A stretch of DNA of 38,735 bases, from contig JAMPXK010000021.1 of assembly GCA_023701245.1 (NCBI GenBank), positions 1 through 38,735 on the forward strand, written 5' to 3'. This document shows, one piece after another, positions 10,731 to 36,731 of this stretch; position 1 is the stretch's first letter; every line of letters begins with the position of its first letter. The notes beneath the pieces were generated by a model. The model was not told the origin of the DNA, made no database searches, and saw nothing but the letters and a program-made list of their open reading frames with translations. Origin of the DNA: Elusimicrobiales bacterium. Lineage in GTDB: Bacteria > Elusimicrobiota > Elusimicrobia > Elusimicrobiales > UBA9959. The translations under genes and the position numbers were made by a program.

Positions 10731-10862
10731 ACGGGCGCAGGGGCAGGGTTAGCAAAACCCTCGTGAGGCCCGAGCTTGCATAAGCGCGAGGGCCGAATCG
10801 CGGAGCGAGGCCACGGTGTGGCCGAGCGCGTTTTGCGTTCCTGCCCCTGCGACAGGGCCCGT
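10731..10862 (+). repeat. Structured intergenic element, divergent copy C
   Basis: This fills the 173-bp gap between two convergent genes (rnd and ygiQ). A 12-bp perfect outer helix pairs 10736-10747 with 10840-10851, with an extra ACGGGC/GCCCGT beyond a bulge. Inside, GCAAAAC (10752-10758) pairs with GTTTTGC (10830-10836) and encloses two hairpins: GGCCC...GGGCC with an inner GCTT-gcat-AAGC (10767-10794), and GGCCAC-GGT-GTGGCC (10809-10823). The second corresponds to GCGCAC-GGT-GTGCGC in copies A and B, with compensated pairs, and the 3' arm ends with a similar C-rich run. There is no T tract. It is judged a distant family member on structure plus short shared words. Confidence 0.55.
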
Positions 10863-22623: not shown

Positions 22624-22759
22624 GTCCGGCCCGGGGGGTATGGTTTCGGCGGGCCGTGTCGGACTGAAGCCGCTTGCGCAGCGCGGCGAGGGAGACACGA
22701 GCGGCGCGCACGGTGTGCGCGACCGCGTGCCCGACGGGGCCATACCCCCCGGGCCGGAC
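22624..22759 (+). repeat. Structured intergenic element, copy A
   Basis: The element fills the whole 147-bp gap between two convergent genes. A perfect 20-bp inverted repeat (22624-22643 with 22740-22759) closes a 96-nt core. The core is 93/96 identical to copy B at 36553-36648. Inside it are the pairs TTCGG/CTGAA (22645-22649 with 22664-22668), a GCCGC...GCGGC hairpin, and CGCGCAC-GGT-GTGCGCG (22705-22721). The innermost stem pair is T22644-G22739, a wobble replacing G-C of copy B. No transposase, T tract or coding potential is seen. Confidence 0.85.
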
Positions 22760-22764
22760 TGGGC

Positions 22765-23088
22765 CTAGAAGCGGCGGATGATGAAAGACGAGCGGGAGCC
22801 CAGGGAAAGCAGTTTGAAGAGCGTGAAGAAGAGCGCCGCGCCGGCGAGCATGAGCGGGATGCCAATGATGGCGCCTATGACGGTAGAGGTGAGCAGGGCG
22901 CCCAGCGCCAGCAGCGCCAGGGCGGCCAGGCCCAGGCCCGCGGCGGCCAGCACCTTCAGGCGGGTCAGCAGGCCGGGACTCTGCGGCGGGGGGGCGTAAA
23001 AGCCGCCGCCGCGCGCGGGCCCGCCGCCGGGTTCTATAAGTTCCGGCTCCACCCAGTCGGTGTTTTTTGCAAGGCGCCTGTCGGTCAT
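22765..23088 (-). CDS. Small two-helix membrane protein, unrecognised
   Basis: The 107-residue protein has a polar, Pro/Gly-rich N-terminal tail (about 1-40) and then two hydrophobic helices (about 46-68 and 71-93) joined by a short Ser/Thr turn. It ends in a basic FIIRRF. It looks like a small inner membrane protein with the tail in the cytoplasm. No family is recognised. Its start is supported by TGG-TAGAAT, an extended -10, exactly 6 nt upstream and by the lack of a Shine-Dalgarno sequence. The stop is 5 nt from repeat copy A. It is divergent from the secreted protein at 23124. Confidence 0.6.
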   Translation of the reverse strand: MTDRRLAKNTDWVEPELIEPGGGPARGGGFYAPPPQSPGLLTRLKVLAAAGLGLAALALLALGALLTSTVIGAIIGIPLMLAGAALFFTLFKLLSLGSRSSFIIRRF

Positions 23089-23094
23089 AGTTAA

Positions 23095-23100
23095 ATTCTA
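23095..23100 (-). promoter_or_regulatory. Extended -10 (TGG-TAGAAT) 6 nt before a start codon
   Basis: On the minus strand TTGGTAGAAT is followed by 6 nt and the ATG at 23088. A leaderless transcript is implied. Confidence 0.4.
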
Positions 23101-23123
23101 CCAAACCGGTCCGGGAACTTGAT

Positions 23124-24113
23124 ATGAAAACGTTCAAACTGCCGCTGATCTGCCTCCTGGCCCTCGCCGCCGCGCCAGGGCAGGGCGTTTATGCCGAGGC
23201 GCCCCAGACCAACGCCCTCCTGGTCCTGCCTTCGGAGAAGACCGCTTTCGACAAGGAGTTCCGGGAACTCCTCGATAAAGGCGGCGCCAAGCTGCTGGAC
23301 TCCTATCCGCCCAGCGTCTTTGTCGGCTACATCCCCGCCGCCATGGACGGCACCCTGAAGGAAAAATACGGGGCGCTGGTCTACCGGGAAAAAGTGGAGG
23401 ACTGGAGCTCCTTTGCCCGCTACGGGGAGCGGGCGGTCTTCGCCGTGAACGCCTGGAACAAACGCTTCGTGGAGGACCCGCCCGAGGCGCCGCTGGTGGT
23501 CAGCTCTTCCGTGCGGCGGGCCGCCAAGAAGAAGGAAGCGCTTGTCCTGAACTGGAACGCCGTCATGAAAGCGCTCTATTACCGCCTGCAGATAAGCCAG
23601 ACCCAGGAATTCTCGACGCTGCTGGTAGACGCCAAGACCGCGGCCAACAGCTACGTCATCCAGCCCGCCTTCTGGAAGGACGGGGTCTATTACTGGCGGG
23701 TGGCCGGCGTGCTGGGCCTCAATAACGGGGAAATGAAGGACGGGGCTTTTTCCGAAACCTACACCTTCGCCGTTTCCCGGCCCGGGGCTTCGGTGCGCAA
23801 GGGGCTGGACGCGCCAAACGCGCCCGGCGAGAAGACCTTTTCCAAGAACATTTACTGGGGGCCCTCCGGCCCTTTCAAATATTACCGCCTGCAGGTCTCC
23901 GAGACCGCCGCTTTCGAACCGCCGCTGGCCGACGTATTTACCGACACCTGTTCCTACAAGGTCTCCGGCCTGCCGGTAAAGGCGGACGCCGTCTACTTCA
24001 TGCGGGTGATGGGTTCCGACGGGGCCGCCTACGGCCCCTGGTCCGAGCCGGCCGAGATACGCCTGGAGACGCCGCGCCGGGCGGCGCGCAGCCGCAAGAA
24101 GGGCAAAGAATAA
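23124..24113 (+). CDS. Secreted protein with two FN3-like segments
   Basis: The 329-residue protein has a signal peptide (MKTFKLPLICLLALAAAPGQGVYA, cleaved near 24). An N-terminal segment (30-115) resembles the inhibitor/propeptide-like part of secreted proteases (ALLVLPSEKTAFDKEFRELLDKGG, then SVFVGYIPA). Two similar beta-sandwich units follow at about 130-220 and 232-315. Each carries a Tyr-Tyr-Arg-Leu-Gln core (ALYYRLQISQTQEF and FKYYRLQVSETAAF) and a later Val-Tyr-Tyr/Phe-Trp/Met-Arg-Val strand (VYYWRVAG, VYFMRVMG), the fibronectin III-like pattern. The C-terminus is very basic (RRAARSRKKGKE). No enzyme motif is seen; a surface or periplasmic binding role is only a guess. It converges with the glycosyltransferase gene with 10 bp between stops. 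Confidence 0.7.
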   Translation: MKTFKLPLICLLALAAAPGQGVYAEAPQTNALLVLPSEKTAFDKEFRELLDKGGAKLLDSYPPSVFVGYIPAAMDGTLKEKYGALVYREKVEDWSSFARYGERAVFAVNAWNKRFVEDPPEAPLVVSSSVRRAAKKKEALVLNWNAVMKALYYRLQISQTQEFSTLLVDAKTAANSYVIQPAFWKDGVYYWRVAGVLGLNNGEMKDGAFSETYTFAVSRPGASVRKGLDAPNAPGEKTFSKNIYWGPSGPFKYYRLQVSETAAFEPPLADVFTDTCSYKVSGLPVKADAVYFMRVMGSDGAAYGPWSEPAEIRLETPRRAARSRKKGKE

Positions 24114-24123
24114 AGACCAGGGG

Positions 24124-25323
24124 TCAGCAGCCCAGGAGTTCGCGCCAGAGCCGGGCGGCCCTGGCAAGTTCGAAGTCGCCTGCCCGTTTAAGACCGGCCG
24201 CGCGGTAGCGCGCGAGCAGCGCCGCGTCCCCCAGCAGCCGGGCCATCTCCACTTCCCAGAGAGCTTCCTCTTCCTGCGTTTCGGCGTCGGGCGACCTGCT
24301 GCCGGACAGCGCCGGCATGAGCAGGCCGTAGGGCGAAGGTTCGGGAAGGCCGGAACAGGACGGCGGGGAGGCGGGGGCCAGGATCTCCCTGGGGCCGGCG
24401 GCGCAGTCGGCGGCCATCACGGGCACGCCGCAGGCCAGGGCCTCTACCAGCGCGTTAGGAAAGCCTTCCCAGAGCGAAGTGAAGGCGAACAGGCGCGCTT
24501 TGGCCAGGAAAGGGTAGGGGTTCTCCCTGAAGCCGGCAAAGTAAACATCGGCGTCGGGCGGCGGCTCCCCGCCGCCGGCGAAGACCTTGAGCCCGAGCCG
24601 GGCCGCCAGGCGCGCCAGGTAGCCCTTCAGCTCGCCATCGCCCGCCAGCACCAGCGCCGCTCCCGGCACCGCGTCCCTGACTCCCCTGAAGATCCTCAGC
24701 AGGTGCCATTGCCCCTTGGCGGCCGTAAGGCGCCCGCTGGTGGCCACCACGGGCCGCTCGTAAACCCGCTGCCAGCCGGCCGGCAGCGGCTCGGCGGCCA
24801 GGGCCTGTATGCCGGCCGTATCGCAGCCGTTCTGGATGACGCGGATCTTTGCGGCGGGGATGGCGAAATTCTCCGCGAGGTCCTGTTTTACACCCTGCGA
24901 GTTGGCCACGATGATGTCGGCCAGGGGATAAAAGCGCTTTATCAGCGGCGCCATCAGCAGGCCGCGCAGCCCGGAGAACTCGCCCGAGGGGCGCGTCCGT
25001 TCGCAGATCACGGACCGGTGGCCGCCGCGCCGGGCGGCGAGCACGTTGACGATATTGGCCCGCTCCATGAAAGACAGCACGGTGTCGCCGCGGCCGGCCA
25101 GGGAGGCGAGCTTGCGCGCGTAGAGGGGAATGGCCGCCGTTTTTACCAGGGAGCTGGTGCGGGAGTTGTGCGAGGAAAGGGGCACGGGGGACAGGGCGGT
25201 GGCCTGGGCTATCTCGTTCTCCAGCAGGAACAGCGCCTGCGCCGGGAGGAGGCCGGCCAGGGCGGCCAGCTGTTTTTCCGCTCCGCCCCGGTAAAGGGAA
25301 TTGATCAGCAGCTTCAGCGCCAT
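24124..25323 (-). CDS. Glycosyltransferase family 4 (GT-B fold)
   Basis: The 399-residue protein opens with LKLLINSLYRGGAEKQLAALAG, the acceptor-side Gly-rich loop of GT4 enzymes. In the C-terminal domain it has VATSGRLTAAKGQWHLLRIF (the [S/G]GRL...KG motif, about 195-215), AGDGELKGYLARLA, and the donor-binding EGFPNALVEALACGVPVMAADCAAGPREIL. Such enzymes transfer a sugar from a nucleotide-sugar to lipid-linked or polysaccharide acceptors at the cytoplasmic face of the membrane. Donor and acceptor are unknown. An insertion of Pro/Ser-rich sequence (about 320-350) follows the donor motif. No Shine-Dalgarno sequence is seen; TAGAAT lies 6 nt upstream of the ATG. It is isolated, not in a polysaccharide cluster. 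Confidence 0.88.
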   Translation of the reverse strand: MALKLLINSLYRGGAEKQLAALAGLLPAQALFLLENEIAQATALSPVPLSSHNSRTSSLVKTAAIPLYARKLASLAGRGDTVLSFMERANIVNVLAARRGGHRSVICERTRPSGEFSGLRGLLMAPLIKRFYPLADIIVANSQGVKQDLAENFAIPAAKIRVIQNGCDTAGIQALAAEPLPAGWQRVYERPVVATSGRLTAAKGQWHLLRIFRGVRDAVPGAALVLAGDGELKGYLARLAARLGLKVFAGGGEPPPDADVYFAGFRENPYPFLAKARLFAFTSLWEGFPNALVEALACGVPVMAADCAAGPREILAPASPPSCSGLPEPSPYGLLMPALSGSRSPDAETQEEEALWEVEMARLLGDAALLARYRAAGLKRAGDFELARAARLWRELLGC

Positions 25324-25329
25324 AAACCA

Positions 25330-25335
25330 ATTCTA
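25330..25335 (-). promoter_or_regulatory. TAGAAT -10 box 6 nt before the glycosyltransferase start
   Basis: On the minus strand TAGAAT is followed by 6 nt and the ATG at 25323. It has the same geometry as the boxes at 12664 and 23095. On the plus strand TAGAATATAAC at about 25365-25376 is the likely -10 region of the WD40 gene, which also has AGGAGG before its ATG. Confidence 0.4.
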
Positions 25336-25393
25336 GAATATTTTTTCACCAGCGGGGCGATAGTGTAGAATATAACTATCGCAGGAGGATGCC

Positions 25394-26329
25394 ATGTTAA
25401 ACTCCCTGATAATGCTTTTGCTGGCGCCGCTCTGGGCCGCGCCCGAAACCCCGCTCAAGACCCTGGCCTGGCACAGCGCCGCCGTGGAATGCCTGGCCGT
25501 TTCCCCGGACGGGCAGTACCTGGCCTCGGCCGGGCTGGATACCAACGTGGCGCTGTGGACGGTAAAGACCGGCAAGCTCAAGAAGACCATGGGCGGCCAC
25601 ACGGACGGCGTCTGGGGGCTGGATTTTTCTCCCGACGGGGAATACCTGGCGTCCCTGGGCAACCAGACCATAGAGATCTGGAAGGTGCCCTCCGGCGCCA
25701 ATTTCAAGACCATCCAGGGGCAGAGTTACAGCATGTACGGCGTCCGGTTCTCACCGACGGGGGAATATGTGGCCAGCGGCGGCTATAATTCCATAGGCGT
25801 CTGGAGTTTCCCGGAGGCCAATGCCATCCATACCATGAAGGCCCCGGTGGAGAACGTCTATTCCCTGGTGCCGGGGCCCAACGGCAATTACCTGCTGGCC
25901 GGCAACGGGGACGGCTCCCTGGCCGTATGGAACGTGGCTGATTCACGCCTGATACGCTCTATAAAGGCCCATAAGGAGCCGGTGCGTTCGGCCGCCATTA
26001 CCAGCGACGGCAACTACGCGGTGTCCGCCAGCATGGACGGCACCCTGAAGGTCTGGCGCCTGAGCGACGGAAAACTGGTCAACGGCTACATGGCCCACAA
26101 GGGCGGCGTGCGGGCGGTTGCCGTTTCCCCGGATAATAAATATATCGCCAGCGGCGGGATGGATAACCTGGTGAAGCTCTGGTCCCTGCAGCCCGGCAAG
26201 ACCCGCGCCGCGCTGAAACAGTACCCCGGCCACACCGACAGCGTGGAGGCCGTGGTCTTCTTTCCCGACGGTAAAACCCTGGCTTCAGGTTCCAAGGACA
26301 AGTCCGTTAAACTCTGGAAAACCCCCTGA
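25394..26329 (+). CDS. Exported seven-blade WD40 beta-propeller protein
   Basis: The 311-residue protein has a short signal peptide (MLNSLIMLLLAPLWA) and then seven WD40 repeats of about 40 residues that fill the rest of the chain. Each holds an H..V or similar start, a SPDG(Q/E)YLAS turn and an LW/VW end (examples: VALW, IEIW, IGVW, LAVW, LKVW, VKLW, VKLW). Seven repeats make one closed propeller, a rigid platform for protein-protein contacts. No catalytic domain is attached. Export of a bare propeller is less common than cytoplasmic WD40 fusions and suggests a periplasmic scaffold. AGGAGG stands 7 nt before the ATG. The gene ends at a bidirectional terminator shared with nupC. Confidence 0.9.
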   Translation: MLNSLIMLLLAPLWAAPETPLKTLAWHSAAVECLAVSPDGQYLASAGLDTNVALWTVKTGKLKKTMGGHTDGVWGLDFSPDGEYLASLGNQTIEIWKVPSGANFKTIQGQSYSMYGVRFSPTGEYVASGGYNSIGVWSFPEANAIHTMKAPVENVYSLVPGPNGNYLLAGNGDGSLAVWNVADSRLIRSIKAHKEPVRSAAITSDGNYAVSASMDGTLKVWRLSDGKLVNGYMAHKGGVRAVAVSPDNKYIASGGMDNLVKLWSLQPGKTRAALKQYPGHTDSVEAVVFFPDGKTLASGSKDKSVKLWKTP

Positions 26330-26346
26330 CCTGTAAGCCTCAAATG

Positions 26347-26376
26347 AAAAAAGGGCGGAACTTTCCGCCCTTTTTT
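26347..26376. terminator. Bidirectional terminator between WD40 and nupC genes
   Basis: GGGCGGA-actt-TCCGCCC (26353-26370) is flanked by six A and six T, so it has a T tract on both strands. The converging stops are at 26329 and 26393. Confidence 0.9.
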
Positions 26377-26392
26377 ATTTGCCCGGAGGCGC

Positions 26393-27637
26393 TTACAACA
26401 GGAAGCCGGCTATGGTGGCCGTCATGAAGCAGGCGAGCGAGCCGGCGAGCACGGCGTACAGGCCGAGGCGGGCCAGGTCGTGGCGGCGCTCGGGGGCTAT
26501 GCCGCCGATACCGCCGATCTGGATGGCTATGGACAGGAAGTTGGAGAAGCCGCAGAGCGCGTAGGAAGCGATGACGACGGAGCGCTCGCTCATGACCCCG
26601 GGGTTGGCCTTGAGGTAATTCGCCATGTTGAAGTAGGCCACGAACTCGTTGAGCACCGTCTTCTGGCCCATCCAGTTGGCCACCTGCTGTACCTCGCCCG
26701 AGGGCACGCCCATGATCCAGGCCAGGGGCGTAAAGATCCAGCCGAAGATCATCTCCAGCGTAAGCTGCGGGAAGTTGAACAGGCCTCCCACGTAGCCGGT
26801 AAGGAAGTTGGCCAGGGCCAGGATGGCCATGAAGGCCACGAGGCAGCCGCCCACGTTGAGGGCCAGCTGCAGGCCTACCGTGGCGCCGTTGGCGGCGGCG
26901 TCGATAACGTTGGCGTCGGTGATCTCCAGCTGCATTTTTACCACGCCCCGCGTTTTGGGCTCCTCGGTCTCGGGGACCAGTATCTTGGCCATTACCAGGG
27001 CCGCCGGGGCGGACATGATGGAAGCCGCCAGCAAATGCCCGGCGATATTGGGCAGGTAGCCCATCAGTATGCCTACATAGGCGGCCATCACGCCGCCGGC
27101 TATGGTGGCCATGCCGCCGGTCATCACGGCCATCAGTTCGGAATTGGTCATGGTGGCCACGTAAGGCCGTATCACGAGGGGGGCCTCGGTCTGGCCGACG
27201 AAAATATTGGCGCTGGCCGACAGGGACTCCGCCCCGGAGGTACCCATGAACCTGGCCATCACCTTGGCGAAGACGAGCACTATTTTCTGCATGATGCCCA
27301 GGTAGTAGAGCACGGCCATCAGGGAGGAGAAGAAGATTATGGTGGGCAGCACCTGGAAGGCGAAGAGGAACCCCAGGGACTGGTTGTTGATAAGGCTGCC
27401 GAAGAGGAATTTAGCGCCTTCATCTGAGAAGGACAGGAGCTTTATAATGACGTCGTTGAAGAACTGGAAGGCCTGGCGCCCGAGCGGGACCTTGAGGATG
27501 ATTATGGCGAAAATGACCTGCAGCATGGTGCCGGTAAGAACGGTTTTATAGTTGATGGCCTTGCGGTTCTTGCTGAAGAGCCAGGCTATCGCCAGCAGCA
27601 CGAACATCCCGACGAAACTGATTATCCTTGGTGACAT
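26393..27637 (-). CDS. nupC: CNT-family nucleoside transporter (NupC type)
   Basis: The 414-residue protein has about 10 hydrophobic segments and the concentrative nucleoside transporter signatures: the hairpin GQTEAPLVIRPYV, the MGQKTVLNEFVAY stretch with the cation-site Asn/Glu, and YALCGFSNFLSIAIQIGGIGGIAPERR near the C-terminus. CNT proteins import nucleosides with Na+ or H+ across the inner membrane. Length is normal for bacterial members (about 400). AAGGAGAGA precedes the ATG, and a promoter can be placed over the end of the lepB gene upstream. It is a single-gene unit between two terminators/promoters, apparently for nucleoside salvage. Confidence 0.93.
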   Translation of the reverse strand: MSPRIISFVGMFVLLAIAWLFSKNRKAINYKTVLTGTMLQVIFAIIILKVPLGRQAFQFFNDVIIKLLSFSDEGAKFLFGSLINNQSLGFLFAFQVLPTIIFFSSLMAVLYYLGIMQKIVLVFAKVMARFMGTSGAESLSASANIFVGQTEAPLVIRPYVATMTNSELMAVMTGGMATIAGGVMAAYVGILMGYLPNIAGHLLAASIMSAPAALVMAKILVPETEEPKTRGVVKMQLEITDANVIDAAANGATVGLQLALNVGGCLVAFMAILALANFLTGYVGGLFNFPQLTLEMIFGWIFTPLAWIMGVPSGEVQQVANWMGQKTVLNEFVAYFNMANYLKANPGVMSERSVVIASYALCGFSNFLSIAIQIGGIGGIAPERRHDLARLGLYAVLAGSLACFMTATIAGFLL

Positions 27638-27670
27638 GCTCTCTCCTTGGGCGGCTGTTAACTGACTTCA

Positions 27671-27698
27671 ATTATACAAATAAAAAAATCTCAGTAAA
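27671..27698 (-). promoter_or_regulatory. Promoter of nupC
   Basis: On the minus strand TTTACT, 16 nt, and TATAAT lie about 33 nt before the ATG. The -35 overlaps the lepB stop codon region. Confidence 0.55.
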
Positions 27699-28206
27699 TG
27701 CCGCGCACCCGGCCGGTCACGGCGGAGAGGGGGAGGAAGTACAGGGGCTCCCCCGTGGCGGGGTCCTTCCACGAGGCGGAATCGTTGGAGTTGTCCCGGT
27801 TGTCGCCCAGCACGAACAAGGCTCCTTCCGGGACGGTGAGGGGGCCCAGCGTGTCCCCGGCCAGGGCCTCGTCCGGGCGGGAGTAATGCACGTAGAACTC
27901 CAGTTGGGACTCACCGTTAAGGTAGACCCGCTTCTGGCGGAGCTCCACCGTGTCGCCGGGCAGGGCGATGACGCGCTTTACCGACTCATGGTCCTCGCCG
28001 ACGGGCGACCTGAAGGCCAGGATCTCGCCGCGGCGCGGCGCGCGGAAGCGGTAGGTGAGCTTGTCCAGGATAAGGTGGTGCCCCTTGGTCAGGGTGGGGG
28101 CCATGGAGTCGCTGGCGATGTAGATGGGTTCGCCCAGCCAGCGGCGCGCGGCCAGCGCGGCGGCTACGGTCAGGACGACGATGAGAGTGGTGCGCAGGGG
28201 TTTCAT
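27691..28206 (-). CDS. lepB: Signal peptidase I
   Basis: The 171-residue protein has one N-terminal membrane anchor (about 5-22) and the SPase I boxes: SDSMAPTL with catalytic Ser34, ESVKRVIALPGD with general base Lys77, and GDNRDNSNDS (134-143). It cleaves Sec and Tat signal peptides on the outer face of the inner membrane. At 171 residues it is the short, single-anchor form as in many Gram-positive bacteria, shorter than E. coli LepB (324, two anchors). The ATG overlaps the stop of the GH3 gene (ATGA), so it is made together with two exported proteins. It may be a second, specialised signal peptidase instead of the only one in the cell. Confidence 0.93.
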   Translation of the reverse strand: MKPLRTTLIVVLTVAAALAARRWLGEPIYIASDSMAPTLTKGHHLILDKLTYRFRAPRRGEILAFRSPVGEDHESVKRVIALPGDTVELRQKRVYLNGESQLEFYVHYSRPDEALAGDTLGPLTVPEGALFVLGDNRDNSNDSASWKDPATGEPLYFLPLSAVTGRVRGIY

Positions 28207-29783
28207 TTTGAAAGGTGTACGGGTAGCTGCCCGGCCGGCTCAAGCAGGCCGCTCAAGGCTTCGCCGGCGGCCGCCATGGACGGCGCGGTCATGCCGTAGA
28301 GGGCCAGGGCGGCGCGCGCCTGCGGGTAGCCGGCCAGGTCGTAGGGGTTCATGAGGCTGAGCAGTACCGAGGGCTTGCCCGCCGCGAGTTCGGTGATGAT
28401 CTCGCGCTGGCCTATGTTCTGGCCGGCGGCCCACTGGAAACTGCCCAGCACCAGGATATCCGCCTGCGCCGCCGCCAGCCGTATCTGCTCCTTTTCTCCC
28501 GGCTTAAGGCGGATGTCGAAAAGGTACTGGCTGGCCTGGTAGCCGTTCTCCAGCAGTACCCGGTAGAGGTGGATGGCGTTGTCGGCGAAGCGCTGCGGGG
28601 CGAAAATGATGACGGCGATCTTTTTGTCCCGGGGCAGGGGGAGCAGCCCGTCGTTCTTTACCAGGGTAAGACCGCGGCGTGACAGGTCCCCGGTTATTTG
28701 CACGTAGGCCTTGTCGAACGGCGAGGAGGTCTCGGCGGGGGAGAACAGGCCCGCCGCCCGCTTTGCCGCCAGGACCCGGGCGTAAGCGTCATCGAGGCGT
28801 TCCTGGCTGATGCGCCCGGCGCGCACCTGCGCGGCTATCTCCCGAATGACCGGTGCCGGGTCGGCCTTGCCTATCAGCAGCACGTCGGCGCCGGCCTTGA
28901 GCGCGGCCGCCGCGGCCTTGCGCACGCTGCGGCGCGAGGTAATGGCGCTCATGTCCAGGCTGTCGGTGAAAACCAGCCCTCCGTATCCCAGCTCCCGCTT
29001 CAGCAGGCCGCCCAGTACCGCCGGGGAAAGCGTAGCCGGGTTGCGGGCGTCCAGGGCAGGGTAGAGGATATGCGCGGTCATGATGCCCGGGACCCCGAGG
29101 CGGATCGCCGCGCGGAACGGGACCAGGTGCACGGCGGCCAGGTCGGCCGTGGAAAGGGCTATCTCGGGCAGGGTCTTATGTGAATCCTGGGCGGCGGCGC
29201 CGTGGCCGGGGAAATGTTTGGCCACGGCCACCACTCCCGCCGCCTTGAGCCCGTTGATGATGGCACCGCCCAGGCGCGCCGCCTGCTCCGGGTCCGAACC
29301 TAATGAGCGGATGCCGATTATGGGGTTCTTGGGGTTGGTGTTGACGTCCAGGACCGGGCCGAAGGCCAGGTTTATGCCGGCCCGGCGCAGTTCCTTGCCG
29401 GCCAGGTAGAAGAGGGTGGCGGTATTGTTCTCGTCGGCGGCCGCGCCCAGCATCATGTTGGTGGGCAGTTCCAGCAGGCCGAGGGTGGTGGGCACGTAGA
29501 CGCTGCCGCCCTCGTAGTCCACGGCGATAAAGAGCGGGGCGCCCGGCGCGGCCTCCTGCAGCGCGGCGGTAAGACGGCGGGTGTCTTCCAGCGAGTAGGA
29601 CCCCCACTGCAGCTGGACGCCGCCCAACCCCGCTTTTACGGCGGCGGTGACCGTGGAGATATCGGCCGCGTCGGCCGCGGCTATCAGCAGCTGGGCCGCC
29701 TTCTCCTCTATGGAGGGTCCGGCGGCCCGGGCGGTCGCCGGCAGCAGCAGCAGGAACAGGAGGAGCCGGCGGCGGTAACGCAT
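28203..29783 (-). CDS. Exported GH3 beta-N-acetylhexosaminidase (NagZ-like)
   Basis: The 526-residue protein starts with a signal peptide (MRYRRRLLLFLLLLPATARA). The GH3 TIM barrel contains AVDYEGG (88-93), KHFPGHG (189-195), DSHKTLPE with His202 of the NagZ catalytic Asp-His pair, and the nucleophile Asp274 in FTDSLDMSAI. A C-terminal alpha/beta sandwich follows (about 360-526). NagZ-type enzymes remove N-acetylglucosamine from peptidoglycan fragments. The presence of the catalytic His places it in the NagZ branch; export differs from the cytoplasmic enterobacterial enzyme and resembles the secreted Bacillus form, so it probably acts in the periplasm on cell-wall glycans. The usual Arg after EGG-x-V is absent (GGSVYVPTT). 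It lies 3 nt after the VWA gene and overlaps lepB. Confidence 0.9.
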   Translation of the reverse strand: MRYRRRLLLFLLLLPATARAAGPSIEEKAAQLLIAAADAADISTVTAAVKAGLGGVQLQWGSYSLEDTRRLTAALQEAAPGAPLFIAVDYEGGSVYVPTTLGLLELPTNMMLGAAADENNTATLFYLAGKELRRAGINLAFGPVLDVNTNPKNPIIGIRSLGSDPEQAARLGGAIINGLKAAGVVAVAKHFPGHGAAAQDSHKTLPEIALSTADLAAVHLVPFRAAIRLGVPGIMTAHILYPALDARNPATLSPAVLGGLLKRELGYGGLVFTDSLDMSAITSRRSVRKAAAAALKAGADVLLIGKADPAPVIREIAAQVRAGRISQERLDDAYARVLAAKRAAGLFSPAETSSPFDKAYVQITGDLSRRGLTLVKNDGLLPLPRDKKIAVIIFAPQRFADNAIHLYRVLLENGYQASQYLFDIRLKPGEKEQIRLAAAQADILVLGSFQWAAGQNIGQREIITELAAGKPSVLLSLMNPYDLAGYPQARAALALYGMTAPSMAAAGEALSGLLEPAGQLPVHLSK

Positions 29784-29786
29784 CGC

Positions 29787-31379
29787 TTATTCTGAGAACT
29801 TGTAGCCGCGCTTTACTGCCTGGCGGCGGATAGTGTCTATCATGGCTTTATCCAGGGTGTTGGCGCCGGCCTGTTTCTTCTCTTCCTGCGCCAGGTACAC
29901 CTTGCGCTCGGTCTGGAGGCGGTTGATCTCTTCCTTTATCTTCTTGCGCTCGGCCAGTTTGCCGTCCAGGTATTTGTCCAGCGCGGCCTTGTCCATGGCC
30001 TTGAGTTCTTCCGGCAGCTGTTCTTTCTTTATCTCGTCGCGGTTCACCGCGCCGCTCTCCACCGCGGACACAACGTCCCAGGAGGAGTCCGCCATGGCTG
30101 CGCCGGGAGCGGCGGCCTGGAAGGCCGCGCGTTCGGCCGCTATGCCCTTGCCTGCGCTCCTGGCCATGTTGCTTACTTCCCGCTTGGCCGCCATCTTGCT
30201 CTGGCCGTTGGCCCCGTAGGCCACGTAGGTGTCGTTAAGTTTGCTGCTGAGTTCGCTGATCCGGTCGTCCTGCGGCGCCGCGATGGCGTAGGCGGTCAGG
30301 GACTGGTCTATATTGGCGTAATCGCCTTCGGCCAGGTCCGCGCCGGCCTTCCACTGCTCCGCCAGACCGCGCTGCCTGGCCCCGCAGTAGACGGTGTTGA
30401 CGAAGATGCCTTTGGCCTTGGCTTTGGCCACGGCGTCCTGGTAGGGCACGGTGCCCTGGGTGAAAGGTTCGTTGCCGGCTATGAAAATGGCCTTGTAGAC
30501 GTCGGTCTTGGGGCTCCACTTCAGTTCGGTCACGGCGGCCTTGATGGCCTGGCCGCAGAATTCCTCGCCGCCGTTGGTGCGCAGCGCGAAAAGTTCCTTG
30601 GCGACACTGTCGAGGTCCTGGGTGAAAGGCAGCACCTGGCGTATCCAGCCGGACCCGGCGGACAGGGTGGAATTCCCGTATTCGTAAAGGGCGACTTCTA
30701 TAACGGGGCGGGAGCCGCTCTTTTCCGAAGAGACGAGTTCGTTGACTATTTTCCAGACCTGGGAGCGGGCCTGGTTGATGAGCCCGTCCATGGAGTTGGA
30801 GGTGTCCAGCAGTATGGCCACCTGGACCAGCGGCTTGGAGCCGTAGTCCTGGGGAGGTTTGACCGCCGTGGCCCCGGTGTCGGACCAGGTCTTTGTGACC
30901 AGGGCGGAGGCCGCGGCCAGGATCTTGCCGCTTTCCGTCTCCACCACGCGGGCGTTCACTTCGCAATTGCCTTCCTGCAGGTCGTTGAGCGTGCCGGTCA
31001 CTACCGCGTCCGCGCCGAGCATCTTGCCCAGTTTCTTGACGGTCTCCTCGTCCACCGCACCGGAGGCCTGGAGTTTAAGCTCTTCCATGACCTTCTTCAT
31101 CAGGCCGCGCTCTATCAGTACGACCTTCTTATTGCCGGCCAGCAGGGTGGTCAGGCGCTCCTGCACCACCACCGGGCCTTCGGAGGCCTTTTCGCTGGTA
31201 TAAGGGAAAGCCAGGACGGCGAGTTTGATGCCGGGAGAGGCCTTTACGCCCTTGCCGAGCTCGCCGGCCAGATCGGAGAGTTCCGCCGAGGCGGAGGTGC
31301 CGGCTTTGGCGGCGGGAGCCGCGGCAAAAACAGGCGCCTGGAGCCCGAGCAGCATGAGGAGGATGAATGTTTTTTTCAT
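29787..31379 (-). CDS. Exported CsgG/FlgO-like plus von Willebrand A domain protein
   Basis: The 530-residue protein has a signal peptide (to about 20) and then a CsgG/FlgO-like alpha/beta domain (about 50-165: KLAVLAFPY, VVLIERGLMKKVMEELKLQ, LGKMLGADAVVTGTL). A VWA domain follows (about 185-370) with a MIDAS motif DTSNSM (Asp192, Ser194, Ser196). The C-terminal tail is charged and helical (about 455-510, EERKKIKEEINRLQTERK) and looks coiled coil. VWA domains bind metal and partner proteins. CsgG/FlgO-like domains occur in periplasmic or outer membrane assembly factors. The fusion suggests an envelope adhesion or assembly role, which is inference. AGGAAGG precedes the ATG. It leads an operon with an exported GH3 enzyme and signal peptidase I. 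Confidence 0.8.
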   Translation of the reverse strand: MKKTFILLMLLGLQAPVFAAAPAAKAGTSASAELSDLAGELGKGVKASPGIKLAVLAFPYTSEKASEGPVVVQERLTTLLAGNKKVVLIERGLMKKVMEELKLQASGAVDEETVKKLGKMLGADAVVTGTLNDLQEGNCEVNARVVETESGKILAAASALVTKTWSDTGATAVKPPQDYGSKPLVQVAILLDTSNSMDGLINQARSQVWKIVNELVSSEKSGSRPVIEVALYEYGNSTLSAGSGWIRQVLPFTQDLDSVAKELFALRTNGGEEFCGQAIKAAVTELKWSPKTDVYKAIFIAGNEPFTQGTVPYQDAVAKAKAKGIFVNTVYCGARQRGLAEQWKAGADLAEGDYANIDQSLTAYAIAAPQDDRISELSSKLNDTYVAYGANGQSKMAAKREVSNMARSAGKGIAAERAAFQAAAPGAAMADSSWDVVSAVESGAVNRDEIKKEQLPEELKAMDKAALDKYLDGKLAERKKIKEEINRLQTERKVYLAQEEKKQAGANTLDKAMIDTIRRQAVKRGYKFSE

Positions 31380-31463
31380 TGTGTGTGCCTTCCTGGGGGA
31401 AAGTTAAGACGTTTTCAGGATACCAAATATCCGCCCTCTTTATAAATATCGGTTCGCCCCGTA

Positions 31464-31492
31464 TTGAAATGGCAGGGTAAAAAATGTATTTT
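31464..31492 (+). promoter_or_regulatory. Promoter of the ApbE-like gene
   Basis: TTGAAA, a 17-nt spacer and TATTTT lie 23 nt before the GTG start. A strong AAGGGGG ribosome site is at 31504-31510. Confidence 0.55.
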
Positions 31493-31515
31493 TATGATAT
31501 GTTAAGGGGGAAAAC

Positions 31516-32526
31516 GTGAAACCGTCCGCCAGCTATCTAGCCTTGTCCTTTGCTGCGCTGCTTTGCGCCTGCGGCCAAAAGGAGGAGCCCGCCTATACCC
31601 AGAGCGTGTTCCTCATGAACGTGCCCGCGCAGGTGAAGGTCTACGGGGCCGGGGAGGCGCAGGGCAAACAGATCGCCGACGCCGTGCTGGGGGAATGGGA
31701 ACGCATCTCTTCCGAATTCAGTTTCAGCGACAAGTACAGCCAGACCTCCGTGGTCAACAAGAAGGCCTATGGGGAGTGGGTGAAGGTGGACGAGGAATTC
31801 CTGCGCCTGCTGCAGCTTTCCCTGGACTACTACCGCCTTACCGGCGGGGCTTTCGACATAACTTTCGCGCCGTTGTGGCCTATCTGGAAGGAGGCCGCGT
31901 CCACCCGCAAGATGCCGGCCAAAGAGGATATCTCCAAGGCGCTGGCCAACATGGGGTCGGGGCATATACAGGTGGACCACCAGCGCAAACTGGTGCGGTT
32001 CTCCCGGCCGGTCCAGATCAACATGGGCGGCATCCTGCGCGGCTATTGCTTCGCGCGGGCCGCCCGGATACTAAAGGACATGGCCCCGGGGTACCCGGTG
32101 GAACTGCGCCTGGGCAGCAACATGCTGGCGTTCGGCAAGCGCGCCTGGCGCTACGACATCAAGGACCCTTTCGACGACGACAAGGTCTTCGGCAGCCTGA
32201 ACTTCGAGGACGGCGTGGTCATGTCCTCCTCGGGGCGGGAACATTTCGTGCAGATAGAGGGCAAGCTCTATTCCCATATCCTGGACATCAAGACCGGCTA
32301 CCCGCTGGAAAATTTCTCCAACCTGGTGGTCTATTTCCCGAAGATCGAGGACGAAAGCTTCCTGTCCTCCTCCGTGCTGGCCGTGATGGGCAGGGAGAAC
32401 ACCTTCTCCCTCCTGTCCAAACTGAAGGGCACTTCCGCGGTCTGGATAGACGGCGCCGGCAAAGAGGCGGTGTTCTCCAACGAGGCCAGCCGGGCGCGCT
32501 GGGAGAAGGCCCGCCGGTTCTTTTAA
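31516..32526 (+). CDS. apbE: ApbE-family lipoprotein (FAD:protein FMN transferase-like), divergent metal site
   Basis: The 336-residue protein starts at a GTG behind AAGGGGG. A signal peptide ends in LLCAC-GQ, so Cys19 is the likely lipidated residue. The ApbE fold is clear: GAFDITFAPLWPIW (about 111-124), INMGGILRGY (168-177), LRLGSNMLAFG, SSSGREHF, and HILDIKTGYP (254-262). ApbE transfers FMN from FAD to a Thr of Na+-pumping NADH dehydrogenase and Rnf subunits, using Mg2+. Here GG-I-A-K-G is changed to GGILRG. The usual D-A-L-S-T of the metal site aligns to F282-L-S-S-S, so the Asp is replaced by Phe and the Thr by Ser. Activity could be altered, or the protein may do another flavin job. 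It is a single gene with its own promoter and terminator. Confidence 0.85.
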   Translation: MKPSASYLALSFAALLCACGQKEEPAYTQSVFLMNVPAQVKVYGAGEAQGKQIADAVLGEWERISSEFSFSDKYSQTSVVNKKAYGEWVKVDEEFLRLLQLSLDYYRLTGGAFDITFAPLWPIWKEAASTRKMPAKEDISKALANMGSGHIQVDHQRKLVRFSRPVQINMGGILRGYCFARAARILKDMAPGYPVELRLGSNMLAFGKRAWRYDIKDPFDDDKVFGSLNFEDGVVMSSSGREHFVQIEGKLYSHILDIKTGYPLENFSNLVVYFPKIEDESFLSSSVLAVMGRENTFSLLSKLKGTSAVWIDGAGKEAVFSNEASRARWEKARRFF

Positions 32527-32542
32527 GCGCCGCTGCTAAAAG

Positions 32543-32572
32543 AAAAAGCCCGGGACTTCCCGGGCTTTTTTT
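32543..32572. terminator. Bidirectional terminator between apbE and the asparaginase gene
   Basis: AAAAAGCCCGGG-actt-CCCGGGCTTTTT (32543-32570) plus two more T. The A run gives a T tract on the opposite strand, serving the converging gene that stops at 32587. Confidence 0.9.
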
Positions 32573-32586
32573 ATCCTCGCGGCGGG

Positions 32587-33075
32587 CTACTTGATCTCTT
32601 CGAACTCGCCCTTGGCCTTGTTCTTGCGCACATTGTTCCAGTTGAAGAACCTGCCGTTCATGGCGATATACACGCCGGGCGGCAGCACCTGCGCGAAGGA
32701 GAGCGCCGAACCCAGGTTGAACATCCCGTCAGAGGAGCCGAACTTGTAAGGCACCATGGCGCCGGTCAGCACCACGGTCTTGTCGGTAATGTTGCGGCCC
32801 AGGAGGCGCGCCGTTTCGGGCATGGTGTCGGTGCCGTGCGTGACGACGATGTGCTTTTCCTTGGCGGTCAGGCATTCCCTGAGGATGCGGCCGCGGTGGG
32901 CCGGCTTCATCAGCAGGCTGTCTATCATCATCAGCGTCTTCACCTTCACGGGCAGGCGCGAGCGCCCCAGGCGCAGCATTTCTTCCAGATGCGTCTTGCG
33001 GAAGAAAAGCTCGCCGTTGAGCTCGTTATACTCCTTGTCGAAGGTGCCGCCGGTTACGAAGAGCTTTATCGTCAT
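32587..33075 (-). CDS. One-domain L-asparaginase-like protein
   Basis: The 162-residue protein corresponds only to the N-terminal domain of L-asparaginase (usual length about 330). The active-site residues of that domain are present: TGGTFDK with the nucleophile Thr11, IDSLLM with Ser53, and THGTDTM with Thr82-Asp83. The LTGAMVPYKFGSSDGMFNL segment with its lysine is also there. The C-terminal domain, which supplies the intersubunit part of the active site, is absent and no second open frame follows before the terminator, so this is a genuine short form and not a frameshift remnant. Such short members exist as annotated asparaginase-domain proteins without known activity. It lies 12 nt after an M18 aminopeptidase gene, in the same transcript. 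Confidence 0.85.
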   Translation of the reverse strand: MTIKLFVTGGTFDKEYNELNGELFFRKTHLEEMLRLGRSRLPVKVKTLMMIDSLLMKPAHRGRILRECLTAKEKHIVVTHGTDTMPETARLLGRNITDKTVVLTGAMVPYKFGSSDGMFNLGSALSFAQVLPPGVYIAMNGRFFNWNNVRKNKAKGEFEEIK

Positions 33076-33087
33076 GTGGCCGGCCTC

Positions 33088-34530
33088 TTATTTCCGCCCG
33101 TCCTTCAGGAAGGCCAGGTAGCCCTTGTAGGCCATGTAGATGTCAAGCTTGCCGGCCAGTTCCATGGGGGCGTGCATGGAGAACAGGCCCACGCCGCAGT
33201 CCACCACCTGCATGCCGTAGCGGGCCATGAACTGGGCGATAGTGCCGCCGCCGCCCTGGTCCACCTTGCCCAGCTCGCCGGTCTGCCAGACCACGTTGTT
33301 GCGGTCGAAGATGCGGCGGATATGCGCCATGAACTCGGCCGAGGCGTCGGAAGAGCCGGATTTGCCGCGGGCGCCGCCGTACTTGGACACGCAGACGCCG
33401 TGGTTGAGGAGCGCGGCGTTGCGTTTCTCGCACACGGTGGGGAACATGGGGTCGAACAGCACGTTGACGTCGGCGGAGATCATCCAGGAGTTGTGCAGCG
33501 CGCGTTTCAGGGCCAGTTCGCTGTAGGCGGGCGTGGTGAGGTTGAGCAGTTCCGCGGAGGCGTTCTCGAAGAGGTTGGAGGCCATGCCGGTGGCGCCGAC
33601 GGAACCTATCTCCTCCTTGTCGCAGAGCAGCACACAGGAGGTGTACTCGGGGATGCCTTTCAGGTCCAGGATGGCCTTCAGGCCGGTATAGGCGCAGACG
33701 CGGTCGTCGTGGCCGTAGGCCAGCACCATGGAGCGGTCGAGGCCCGCTTCGCGGGGGGCGGCGGCCGGGACTATCTCGAGCTCGGCCGACTGGAAGTCTG
33801 CCTCGGTGACGCCGTACTTCTTGTTGAGCAGGGCCAGGATATTGTGCTTCACCTTCTCTTTCTTGTCTTTATCGGAGGAAGGGATGGAGCCGGCTACCAC
33901 GTCCAGGCCTTCGCCGGGGATGGCTTCGCCCAGCGTCTTCTTGTACTGGTCCGCGGCCAGGTGCGGCAGCAGGTCGGTGATGCAGAGCACCGGGTCGGAA
34001 GGGTCCTCGCCGATATTGACCTTTACCTTTTTGCCGTCGGGCTTAACGAAGACGCCGTGCAGCGCCAGCGGGATGGTGACCCACTGGTACTTCTTGATGC
34101 CGCCGTAGTAATGGGTGTCGAGCAGGGCCATGCCCGTGTTCTCGTAGAGCGGGTTCTGTTTGAGGTCTATGCGGGGGGCGTCGGTATGGCCGCCTACTAT
34201 GTGCATGCCCTGTTCCAGGGGTTTCTTGCCCACCACTATGGCCATCAGGGTCTTGCCCTCGCTGGAGCGGTAAACCTTAGAGCCGGGGGGGAGTTTCTGC
34301 CCGGTCTTCTCGTAGTTGCGCATGTCCTGGAAGCCTGCGGCTTCCAACAGGAGGATGGCTTCGTCGTGCGCTTCGCGCTCGGTCTTGGCCTTGCCGATAT
34401 ATTCTATGTAAGCCTTGTTGACCTCTTCACAATGCTTCAGGTCGGCGGGGGAGACCTTTTCGTAGCCGTTCTTGTTGTCGTAGGCGAGGCTGGAAGTTTT
34501 ATGGGCGGGTTTCTTCGCGGTTTTCTTCAT
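33088..34530 (-). CDS. M18-family aminopeptidase (aspartyl aminopeptidase type)
   Basis: The 480-residue protein has the M18 metal site: HTDAPR (His115, Asp117), YGHDDRVCAY (Asp275-Asp276), DKEEIGS (Glu306-Glu307), SSDAS and the late MHAPMELAGK histidine. M18 enzymes are cytoplasmic, dodecameric, two-metal peptidases that remove N-terminal acidic or hydrophobic residues. An upstream in-frame ATG four codons earlier is possible, but GGAGG stands between them at the right distance for the ATG at 34530, so this start is preferred. The lysine-rich N-terminal 15 residues are an unusual extension. It forms a two-gene operon with the asparaginase-like protein, which could feed aspartyl residues or free Asp metabolism. 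Confidence 0.9.
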   Translation of the reverse strand: MKKTAKKPAHKTSSLAYDNKNGYEKVSPADLKHCEEVNKAYIEYIGKAKTEREAHDEAILLLEAAGFQDMRNYEKTGQKLPPGSKVYRSSEGKTLMAIVVGKKPLEQGMHIVGGHTDAPRIDLKQNPLYENTGMALLDTHYYGGIKKYQWVTIPLALHGVFVKPDGKKVKVNIGEDPSDPVLCITDLLPHLAADQYKKTLGEAIPGEGLDVVAGSIPSSDKDKKEKVKHNILALLNKKYGVTEADFQSAELEIVPAAAPREAGLDRSMVLAYGHDDRVCAYTGLKAILDLKGIPEYTSCVLLCDKEEIGSVGATGMASNLFENASAELLNLTTPAYSELALKRALHNSWMISADVNVLFDPMFPTVCEKRNAALLNHGVCVSKYGGARGKSGSSDASAEFMAHIRRIFDRNNVVWQTGELGKVDQGGGGTIAQFMARYGMQVVDCGVGLFSMHAPMELAGKLDIYMAYKGYLAFLKDGRK

Positions 34531-34591
34531 TTGGTCCTCCAAAAATGGGCTGGCGTGCGGCTTTTGCTGACGCTATATATTACCATTTTGC

Positions 34592-34597
34592 TATCAT
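34592..34597 (+). promoter_or_regulatory. Extended -10 (TGC-TATCAT) before the MFS gene
   Basis: The 13-mer TTTTGCTATCATT is identical to the one before ygiQ. Transcription would start near 34604, just before the ATG at 34608. Confidence 0.35.
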
Positions 34598-34607
34598 TAT
34601 GGTGACG

Positions 34608-35816
34608 ATGACAGCTTCCAACTACCCCCGCAAGGTCCTCTTCCTCGTTTTCGGCCTCAGCCTCTTCAATTACATAGACCGGCAGGTGCTCTACGCGGTC
34701 TTCCCGCTGCTCAAGGCCGACCTGCGCCTTTCCGACGCCCAGCTGGGTTTCCTGGCTTCGTCGTTCATGATCGTCTACATGTGCGTGGCACCTTTTGTGG
34801 GTTATTTCGGCGACCGGGTGCGCCGGCCCGTTATCATAGGCGCCAGCGCCATTTTCTGGAGCATCTCCACCCTGTTCAGCGGCCTGGTGAAGAATTACGG
34901 CCAGCTGATCATGACCCGCTCGGCGGTAGGCGTGGGCGAGGCCGGCTACGGCACGGTGTGCCCCTCTTTCCTGGCCGAATGGTTCCCCGTGGAGCGCCGG
35001 GCCAGGATCATGGCACTCTACGCGCTGGCCATTCCCGCCGGCAGCGCGGTAGGTTACCTGCTGGGCGGTTTCCTGGGACAGCATTTCGGCTGGCGCAACG
35101 CCTTCTTTATCGTAGCGGTGCCCGGCATGCTGCTGGGGATCATCGCCCTTTTCCTTAAAGAAACGCCCGAGAAGACCCAGCGCTCCGAGCATATCGCCTT
35201 CTCCGGCTACAAGGCGCTGCTCAAGAACCGCACTTTCCTGCTGATCTGCCTGGCGCAGTCCATAGGCACCTTCTCCGTGGGCGGCATGGCCGCCTGGATG
35301 CCGTCTTATTTCGTGCGCACGTTCGGCGTGTCGGTGGCCAAGGCCGGGTTCCTCTTCGGGGCGGTCACGGTGGCCGCGGGCCTGGCGGGCAATTTCGCCG
35401 GCGGCTGGGCCGCGGACTGGCTGCACAAGCGCACCAAGCGCTCCTATTTCATAGTCGGCTACATGAGCTTTTTCCTCAGCATCCCGTTCGGCGTGGCGGC
35501 CCTCATGACGTCGGACCTTAACCTGGCGCTGGCCATGCTGTTCTTCGCCGAGTTCTTCGTCTTCGCCTATTCCGGCCCCTACCACGCGGCCATAGTGGAA
35601 GTGGTGCCGGTGACCATGCGGTCCATGGCCTTCGCCCTGGACATCTTCATCATCCACGCGCTGGGCGACGCCATCTCGCCGTTCCTGCTCGGCGTGGTAT
35701 CGGACTCCATCGGGCTGACGGCGGCCATCTTCATAGCCATGATCTACCTGCTGCTCGGCGGCGTTACGTCGATAGTGGCGGGCGAGACTTATAAAAAGGA
35801 CTTTCACGCCGCATGA
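34608..35816 (+). CDS. MFS transporter, Spinster-like
   Basis: The 402-residue protein has 12 hydrophobic helices. The N-terminus FLVFGLSLFNYIDRQVLYAVFPLLKADLRLSDAQLGFL, motif A (GYFGDRVRRP), and R-S-A-V-G-V-G-E-A-G-Y in TM4 are typical of the Spinster/sphingolipid-transporter-like branch of the MFS. Bacterial substrates of this branch are mostly unknown; lipids, lysophospholipids or organic anions are candidates. Three ATGs are possible (34545, 34599, 34608). The -10 box at 34592 places the transcript start after 34599, so 34608 is used here, with moderate certainty. The stop overlaps the rluA gene (ATGA). It is divergent from the M18 gene. Confidence 0.85.
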   Translation: MTASNYPRKVLFLVFGLSLFNYIDRQVLYAVFPLLKADLRLSDAQLGFLASSFMIVYMCVAPFVGYFGDRVRRPVIIGASAIFWSISTLFSGLVKNYGQLIMTRSAVGVGEAGYGTVCPSFLAEWFPVERRARIMALYALAIPAGSAVGYLLGGFLGQHFGWRNAFFIVAVPGMLLGIIALFLKETPEKTQRSEHIAFSGYKALLKNRTFLLICLAQSIGTFSVGGMAAWMPSYFVRTFGVSVAKAGFLFGAVTVAAGLAGNFAGGWAADWLHKRTKRSYFIVGYMSFFLSIPFGVAALMTSDLNLALAMLFFAEFFVFAYSGPYHAAIVEVVPVTMRSMAFALDIFIIHALGDAISPFLLGVVSDSIGLTAAIFIAMIYLLLGGVTSIVAGETYKKDFHAA

Positions 35817-36463
35817 AAAATGCATTCGAAGTGGTGCGCGAGACGCCGGACCTGCTGGTGATCAACAAGCACTCCGGCGTGCTGACCATGCCCGCCCGCG
35901 GCGACCTGGCCAAGGAGAAGCACCTGGTAGGCCTGCTTCACCAGCGCTTCGGCAAAGTTTTCGTGGTGCACCGCCTGGACCGCGACGCCAGCGGCCTGAT
36001 CCTGTTCGCGCGCACCGAAAAGGCGCACCGCTATTATTCCGGCCTGTTCGAAACGCGCGCCGTGGAGAAGCATTATCTGGTGGTGGTGGAGGGCAAGGTG
36101 GCGGACAAGCGGGGGGAGATAGATAAGCCGCTGAAGCAGCGCGGGTCCGGGCGGGTGTCTGTGGTTTTCGACGGGAAGGCGTCGGTGACGAACTACGAGG
36201 TGCTGGAACGCCACAAGACGGCTACGGTGCTGGACGTCTCTATCGCCACGGGGCGGCGCCACCAGATCAGGGCGCATCTCTATTCCATCGGCCACCCGGT
36301 GATAGGCGACCCTATGTACGGCGACGCGGCCAAGCAGGCCAAATACCCGCGCCTTATGCTGCACGCCTGGAAGCTGCGCTTCAACGACATGAAGACCTGC
36401 AAACCGGTCAGTTTCGAGGCCGATCCGCCGGCCGACTTTCTTGGCGTGCTCAACGTCCTCTAA
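35813..36463 (+). CDS. RluA-family pseudouridine synthase
   Basis: The 216-residue protein is the bare RluA catalytic domain: LLVINKHSGVLTMPA, the catalytic motif HRLDRDASGL with Asp56, KHYLVVVEGKV, and TGRRHQIRAHL near the C-terminus. It has no S4 domain. Family members isomerise uridine in 23S rRNA or tRNA; the target cannot be told (RluA, TruC and RluC-like short forms are similar). The ATG overlaps the MFS stop by 4 bp. A terminator follows 30 nt later, so it is the end of a two-gene unit. Confidence 0.9.
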   Translation: MKNAFEVVRETPDLLVINKHSGVLTMPARGDLAKEKHLVGLLHQRFGKVFVVHRLDRDASGLILFARTEKAHRYYSGLFETRAVEKHYLVVVEGKVADKRGEIDKPLKQRGSGRVSVVFDGKASVTNYEVLERHKTATVLDVSIATGRRHQIRAHLYSIGHPVIGDPMYGDAAKQAKYPRLMLHAWKLRFNDMKTCKPVSFEADPPADFLGVLNVL

Positions 36464-36492
36464 GTAAGGTAAGATGTAAGGGCAACATGTAA

Positions 36493-36515
36493 GGCATCCG
36501 CAGGGATGCCTTTTT
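36493..36515 (+). terminator. Terminator after the RluA-family gene
   Basis: GGCATCC-gcag-GGATGCC (36493-36510) followed by five T. It lies before repeat copy B, so copy B is not normally part of this transcript. Confidence 0.85.
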
Positions 36516-36531
36516 GTTTGGGTTCCCGCTT

Positions 36532-36669
36532 CCGGTACGGGCAGGGGTATGGGTTCGGCGGGCCGTGTCGGACCGAAGCCGCTTGCGCAGCGCGGCGAGG
36601 GAGACACGAGCGGCGCGCACGGTGTGCGCGACCGCGTGCCCGACGGGCCCATACCCCTGCCCGGACCGG
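36532..36669 (+). repeat. Structured intergenic element, copy B
   Basis: A 22-bp inverted repeat (36532-36553 with 36648-36669, one mismatch at 36537) closes a core that is 93/96 identical to copy A. The outer 11 positions of the stem differ from copy A at every base but remain self-complementary. The core hairpins are TTCGG/CCGAA (36554-36558 with 36583-36587), GCCGC...GCGGC, and CGCGCAC-GGT-GTGCGCG (36614-36630). The next gene starts 62 nt downstream, so this copy could sit in the leader of the disulfide oxidoreductase mRNA. Confidence 0.85.
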
Positions 36670-36731
36670 CAGGTGAAACTTTTTAGGGGAACGGGGCATC
36701 TAACAAGGGAAGGGATAAAGGAGAGATACTT

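Follow-up and report, generated by a model that had tools for sequence, protein, structure and literature searches.

Repeat units in the window

The window, by which we mean the whole 38,735-nucleotide stretch analysed here (contig JAMPXK010000021.1 of an Elusimicrobiales bacterium), carries three copies of a repeat, all on the + strand. Copy A, an S-type unit at 22625 to 22758, lies between convergent genes. Copy B, also an S-type unit (36534 to 36667), has, by eye, a terminator-like hairpin on one side and a promoter-like motif of a thioredoxin-like gene on the other. The third copy, a T-type unit (GTTAGCAAAA...TTTTGCGTTCC, 10736 to 10851), is a covariance-model match and is again placed between convergent genes. 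In the predicted fold of A, the left arm (22625 to 22648) and right arm (22735 to 22758) form the outer stem, the outer part of the left arm being copy-specific and its inner GGTATGG shared, and enclose hairpin 1 (22655 to 22699) and hairpin 2 (22701 to 22726, with the CACGGTGTG loop region), both of which are also given by the pairing in the alignment. Hairpins 1 and 2 of B, at 36564 to 36608 and 36610 to 36635, have the same offsets as in A. Next to B, a TGAAACTTTT..GGCATCTAA motif at 36674 to 36704 precedes the thioredoxin-like gene and recurs in relatives by eye; we take it to resemble an ECF-sigma promoter.

A recount of the cores of A (22644 to 22739) and B (36553 to 36648) agrees with the 93 of 96 identical positions given in the earlier note, with differences at 22644/36553, 22665/36574, and 22739/36648. 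The first and last of these make up the closing pair, which is, as claimed there, U22644·G22739 in A and G36553-C36648 in B. The second proposed pair, G22648-T22665 in A and G36557-C36584 in B, had been given the wrong partner: G22648 is predicted to pair with C22735, and U22665 with G22690 inside hairpin 1, while in the predicted fold of B C36574 pairs with G36599 and position 36584 is unpaired. After this correction it still holds that both core differences stay paired only with the + strand folding. Counted outward from the core, nine stem positions are identical between the two copies and the next 11 are all different, and each copy is self-complementary as had been described, A with 21 consecutive paired positions and B with 21 including one mismatch.

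Copy number and distribution

A blastn search of the organism's own 2.55 Mb genome with copy A returned 36 rows, consisting of A itself, two opposite-strand rows of A's own arms, and 33 other places. The covariance model, built from 15 copies and 120 positions long, gave 61 matches at 60 places with E up to 0.01 (150 of 4349 first-look candidates scored), including seven truncated at contig ends and one that runs antisense to a palindromic copy. The family is therefore far from confined to the two copies on which the earlier note was built, and the search of relatives likewise found many copies; the refuting outcome named in that note, a mere pair of copies without covariation in related genomes, was not borne out. 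Among 41 genomes searched with blastn, all 25 of the genus match and none of the 16 from another family of the same order; in a sample of the phylum searched with the covariance model under stricter filters, matches were found in 14 of 198 genomes, from 6 of 65 genera. The repeat family is multicopy and is present or absent between species. The lineage is one of uncultured Elusimicrobiota, and the thioredoxin-like gene next to B has its nearest relatives mostly in MAGs named as Elusimicrobia. Rfam gives no match at gathering score in the window and none at E<=1 in five loci of the family, in keeping with the earlier remark that no named family fits; copy A has no match in phage and plasmid collections, and our search of the open-access literature turned up no account of a repeat of this kind in Elusimicrobia.

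The T-type units provide information on where the element ends. In 10 of 29, GGAGACC and GGTAGGCC, the latter on the right, are conserved outside the arms, whereas the arms themselves vary from copy to copy, with 139 of 140 positions paired; the other 19, including the window copy at 10736 to 10851, are without conserved outer flanks. In the ten units with conserved flanks, the varying arms are therefore part of the element and not derived from the target. We considered whether the arms could be a pre-existing palindrome or terminator at the target, and rejected this on the ten T-type units with conserved sequence beyond their arms, a rejection whose reach ends short of the window copies themselves; at B, no sequence matching both arms was seen by eye in relatives. 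The G013 site of the window T-type copy (L308, around 5057) carries a Y1/RAYT-like transposase gene with the ends AAATAGGGACAGACACC / GGTGTCTGTCCCTATTT.

Two further groups of repeats were noticed. One subfamily has conserved longer ends, GGCAGGCC.AATAA..GGAGCGGG and GGCCTGCC (L200, L215, L326, L315, L333, and L306), and is inverted between genomes G000 and G013 at L188/L317, L200/L326, and L215/L315. A second repeat family has cores that are variants of GGGGAACCGCGCAACGGTTCCCTGCAGTC, and its outer stem is again self-complementary and differs between sites; it occurs at L285 (6501 to 6649), at the L148, L149, and L202 orthologous sites in G013, and also at site A in G081, G014, and G023 (L250, L251, L255).

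Turnover between genomes

Neither A nor B is present in G013, the nearest member of the genus as judged by both flanks; the flank alignments there are separated by 10 bases at the A site and 17 at the B site. By eye, site A is empty also in L268, L271, and L273, and in other relatives holds other units, sometimes two, or the second repeat family. A clean empty site with target duplication was not found, the closest relative being too diverged for exact junctions.

Core similarity is uncoupled from the similarity of the adjacent sequence. Three copies in G019 do not differ anywhere in their 104-base cores, and their 45-base upstream stretches are just 62% to 69% identical, to be read against a shuffled control with a mean of 56% and a 95th percentile of 64%; for one of these stretches the nearest counterpart (82%) belongs to a copy with a core identity of 86%. 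Over all pairs of the 18 best-scoring G019 copies, core and upstream identity are weakly correlated (r = 0.19). In the organism's own genome, the cores of A, B, L142, and L146 are 92% to 97% identical and the arm segments 62% to 77%. Clustering of the cores goes by genome, with 11 label changes vs 30.8 when shuffled (G000, G013, and G019), although this count is based on few columns with many unresolved forks and includes near-copies. Comparison of G000 with G013 at L142, an orthologous site, shows almost unchanged arms and a core identity of 80%. Seven further orthologous sites carry the unit in opposite orientations in different species. Four of these have differing arms, suggestive of independent insertions into one spacer, and the other three belong to the subfamily with conserved longer ends.

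These observations bear on how the contrast between core and stem should be read. The earlier note took an invariant core with a varying stem as pointing to selection on structure; the conserved pairing on which this drew stands, whereas the contrast is no proof in itself, since cores look shared between sites within genomes and hence appear younger than the stems surrounding them, and DNA-level template switching could be an alternative way of keeping the arms complementary.

Fold, covariation, and strand

The predicted fold, with an outer stem, a short inner helix, and two side hairpins, is a conserved Y shape. With its arms the unit is about 125 to 160 nt long and the outer stem about 20 to 25 bp, and 122 of 130 matches span 113 to 145 bases. 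Alignment A2 (113 distinct matches, 4223 cells), with four antisense and seven truncated matches among its rows, was fitted to the covariance model. Of its cells 95.0% are paired, and two-sided change is found in 38 of 40 pairs; the covariation score of 0.588 compares with 0.045 to 0.100 for partners displaced by one, two, or three columns. When 15 copies were aligned with MAFFT, 24 of the 40 pairs showed two-sided changes. All five helices pair in 93.4% to 96.1% of cells, the inner helices as well as the outer stem.

For the comparison of strands, 15 of 130 rows were dropped (four antisense, one duplicate, eight contig-end, one edge, and one of another family) together with 8 more that had no usable neighbouring genes. 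In 106 of the resulting 107 copies the more stable fold is that of the modelled strand and not of its complement (means of −96.3 and −85.9 kcal/mol), a bias that is partly inherited among related copies; the covariance model, too, had been built on this strand. The + strand had been proposed as the folding strand from A and B, and the larger set supports it. Counts over the outer stem of 97 copies came to 1119 Watson-Crick pairs, 43 G·U, and 23 A·C. The other mismatches number 79; G·G, A·G, and G·A account for 65 of them and pyrimidine pairs for 11. The excess of G·U over A·C is modest (p = 0.019, where this and the other p-values for strand, stem, and placement counts are guides only, as related copies are not independent). 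The structure is conserved by covariation, and one of its strands folds better than the other.

The arms might alternatively be a mutational artefact of palindromes, rewritten by template switching in replication alone, with no selection on structure. Arms that are wholly different between near-identical cores and still complementary are what such a process would leave, and PMC8794818 describes template switching as a way to make and keep RNA stems paired. We would not, however, expect it to produce a strand bias, and both the surplus of G·U and the better folding of the modelled strand in all copies but one show such a bias; at the orthologous site L037/L038, moreover, the arm of L038 has kept a G·G that was not corrected, as well as a G·U. 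As a full explanation we regard it as very improbable, while template switching may contribute to the pairing of the stems.

Placement and orientation

The gene contexts of the 107 copies, called with a simple purpose-made gene finder, include 27 convergent and only 7 divergent spacers (p = 0.0008, again a guide), the background in 40 stretches of the organism's own genome being 71 convergent, 78 divergent, and 479 codirectional. In codirectional spacers, 28 copies are sense and 45 antisense to the genes (p = 0.06, leaning antisense). The median gap from a copy is 26 to a stop codon and 64 to a start. Copies are thus mostly downstream of genes, in either orientation, and seldom in divergent spacers.

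A functional non-coding RNA, or a 3′-UTR stabiliser that benefits the host at mRNA ends, for example against exonucleases, would account for a strand-specific structure with strong covariation and for copies so close behind stop codons. We nevertheless think it unlikely, because the sense of the neighbouring gene is not preferred, the closest relative lives without A and B, and B itself is found, by eye, between terminator-like and promoter-like motifs. The absence of a sense preference also speaks against a host-mRNA element. Since the strand bias does not depend on which genes lie nearby, the fold would seem to serve the spread of the element itself and not a host gene.

The proposed role in termination fared no better. 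In none of 53 copies does the right flank open with a run of three or more T, so that no T-tract directly follows the hairpin as it would in an intrinsic terminator, and B has, by eye, a terminator-like hairpin on one side and a promoter-like motif on the other; L008 and L019 are among the few copies with T-runs further along the right flank.

Orientation was compared with replication-related signals in 49 of 53 rows, 4 being removed as antisense or duplicate. It follows neither GC skew (29 of 49, p = 0.25), which is weak in the 1.16 Mb of G013 over which it was inspected, nor coding bias (23 of 49), and we therefore rejected insertion into the lagging strand, leaving a route through lagging-strand ssDNA without support. 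Two adjacent units were found in 10 of 100 loci, in all ten cases head-to-head and with 15 to 76 bases between the modelled parts, although three of these loci (L032, L037, and L038) represent a single orthologous site; the other 90 gave no sign of a second unit.

Comparison with known repeats

Of the candidates considered earlier, a REP/MITE-like structured multicopy intergenic element is the one borne out by the 61 matches in the genome and their conserved pairing. According to PMC3733652 and PMC3116915, REP elements are extragenic and downstream of genes, in convergent or unidirectional spacers, and form inverted doublets. Their units are 20 to 40 bp long, and REPINs are tied to RAYT genes. 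REP hairpins also have a GTAG or CGTC tag beside them; the ten T-type units with conserved flanks read GGTAGGCC on the right. The Elusimicrobiota repeat shares with REP, BIME, and REPIN sequences its extragenic position, its bias to the 3′ ends of genes, and its inverted doublets. It differs in that the unit is several times longer than a REP and has two side hairpins, and in that no linkage to a REP-associated transposase (RAYT) was found. In 30 loci with Y1 matches (95 kb; 30 of 66 such matches), the model has no match at E<=1, where about two units would be expected by chance at the density of the organism's own genome, so that this zero is weak on its own; in addition, G000, G003, G016, and G024 have no Y1 match and yet carry copies. 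On these two grounds together, mobilisation by RAYT was rejected. The region of the sole Y1 match in G019 (L359, 1 to 2300) contains TATTGAGGTTGAGCCTCAATA repeats, which are unlike the S/T-type family.

ERIC, IRU, and similar enterobacterial intergenic repeats, the subject of PMC2229807 and PMC2759123, have a similar length and are palindromic, intergenic, and multicopy. The Elusimicrobiota family is, in our view, marked by its variable, self-complementary outer stem and by core exchange.

If the units were MITEs of some classical transposon yet to be identified, their structure would be a by-product of inverted ends. Like MITEs, they are small, non-coding, intergenic, multicopy, and present or absent between species, and the repeated ends GGCAGGCC..GGCCTGCC of one subfamily fit such an origin. 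The type seen in the window, however, has no conserved terminal inverted repeat, its arms being copy-specific, and an end-repeat by-product does not predict inner helices that pair as well as the outer stem (93.4% to 96.1%). Neither a partner transposon was found nor a target duplication demonstrated, and since the seven truncated matches are all at contig ends, none of them indicates a copy split by a transposase gene. We consider an origin of this kind improbable.

Interpretation

The reading that we favour, and hold to be probable, is a REP/BIME-like family of non-coding mobile repeats of an Elusimicrobiota lineage, in which the core is copied between sites and the outer stem is under a demand for pairing only. 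Either gene conversion among the copies or transposition of the structured single strand would carry the core to other sites, which would keep the cores of one genome similar to each other. For its part, the outer stem would act as a spacer that needs base pairing only, its sequence free to drift, and compensatory substitution or correction by template switching would keep it paired. No mobilising enzyme for the family was found. A more radical version, which we think rather unlikely, is a mobile element defined by its fold, whose core would be copied as a single strand (RNA or ssDNA) into existing hairpins by an enzyme other than RAYT, with the outer stem as a handle free of sequence requirements.

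Elusimicrobiota is a phylum with few cultured members, and the present family adds a strongly structured repeat to it. Dozens of stems per genome change their sequence and yet stay paired, which makes the family a natural test of where compensatory changes come from, be it selection, template switching, or gene conversion.
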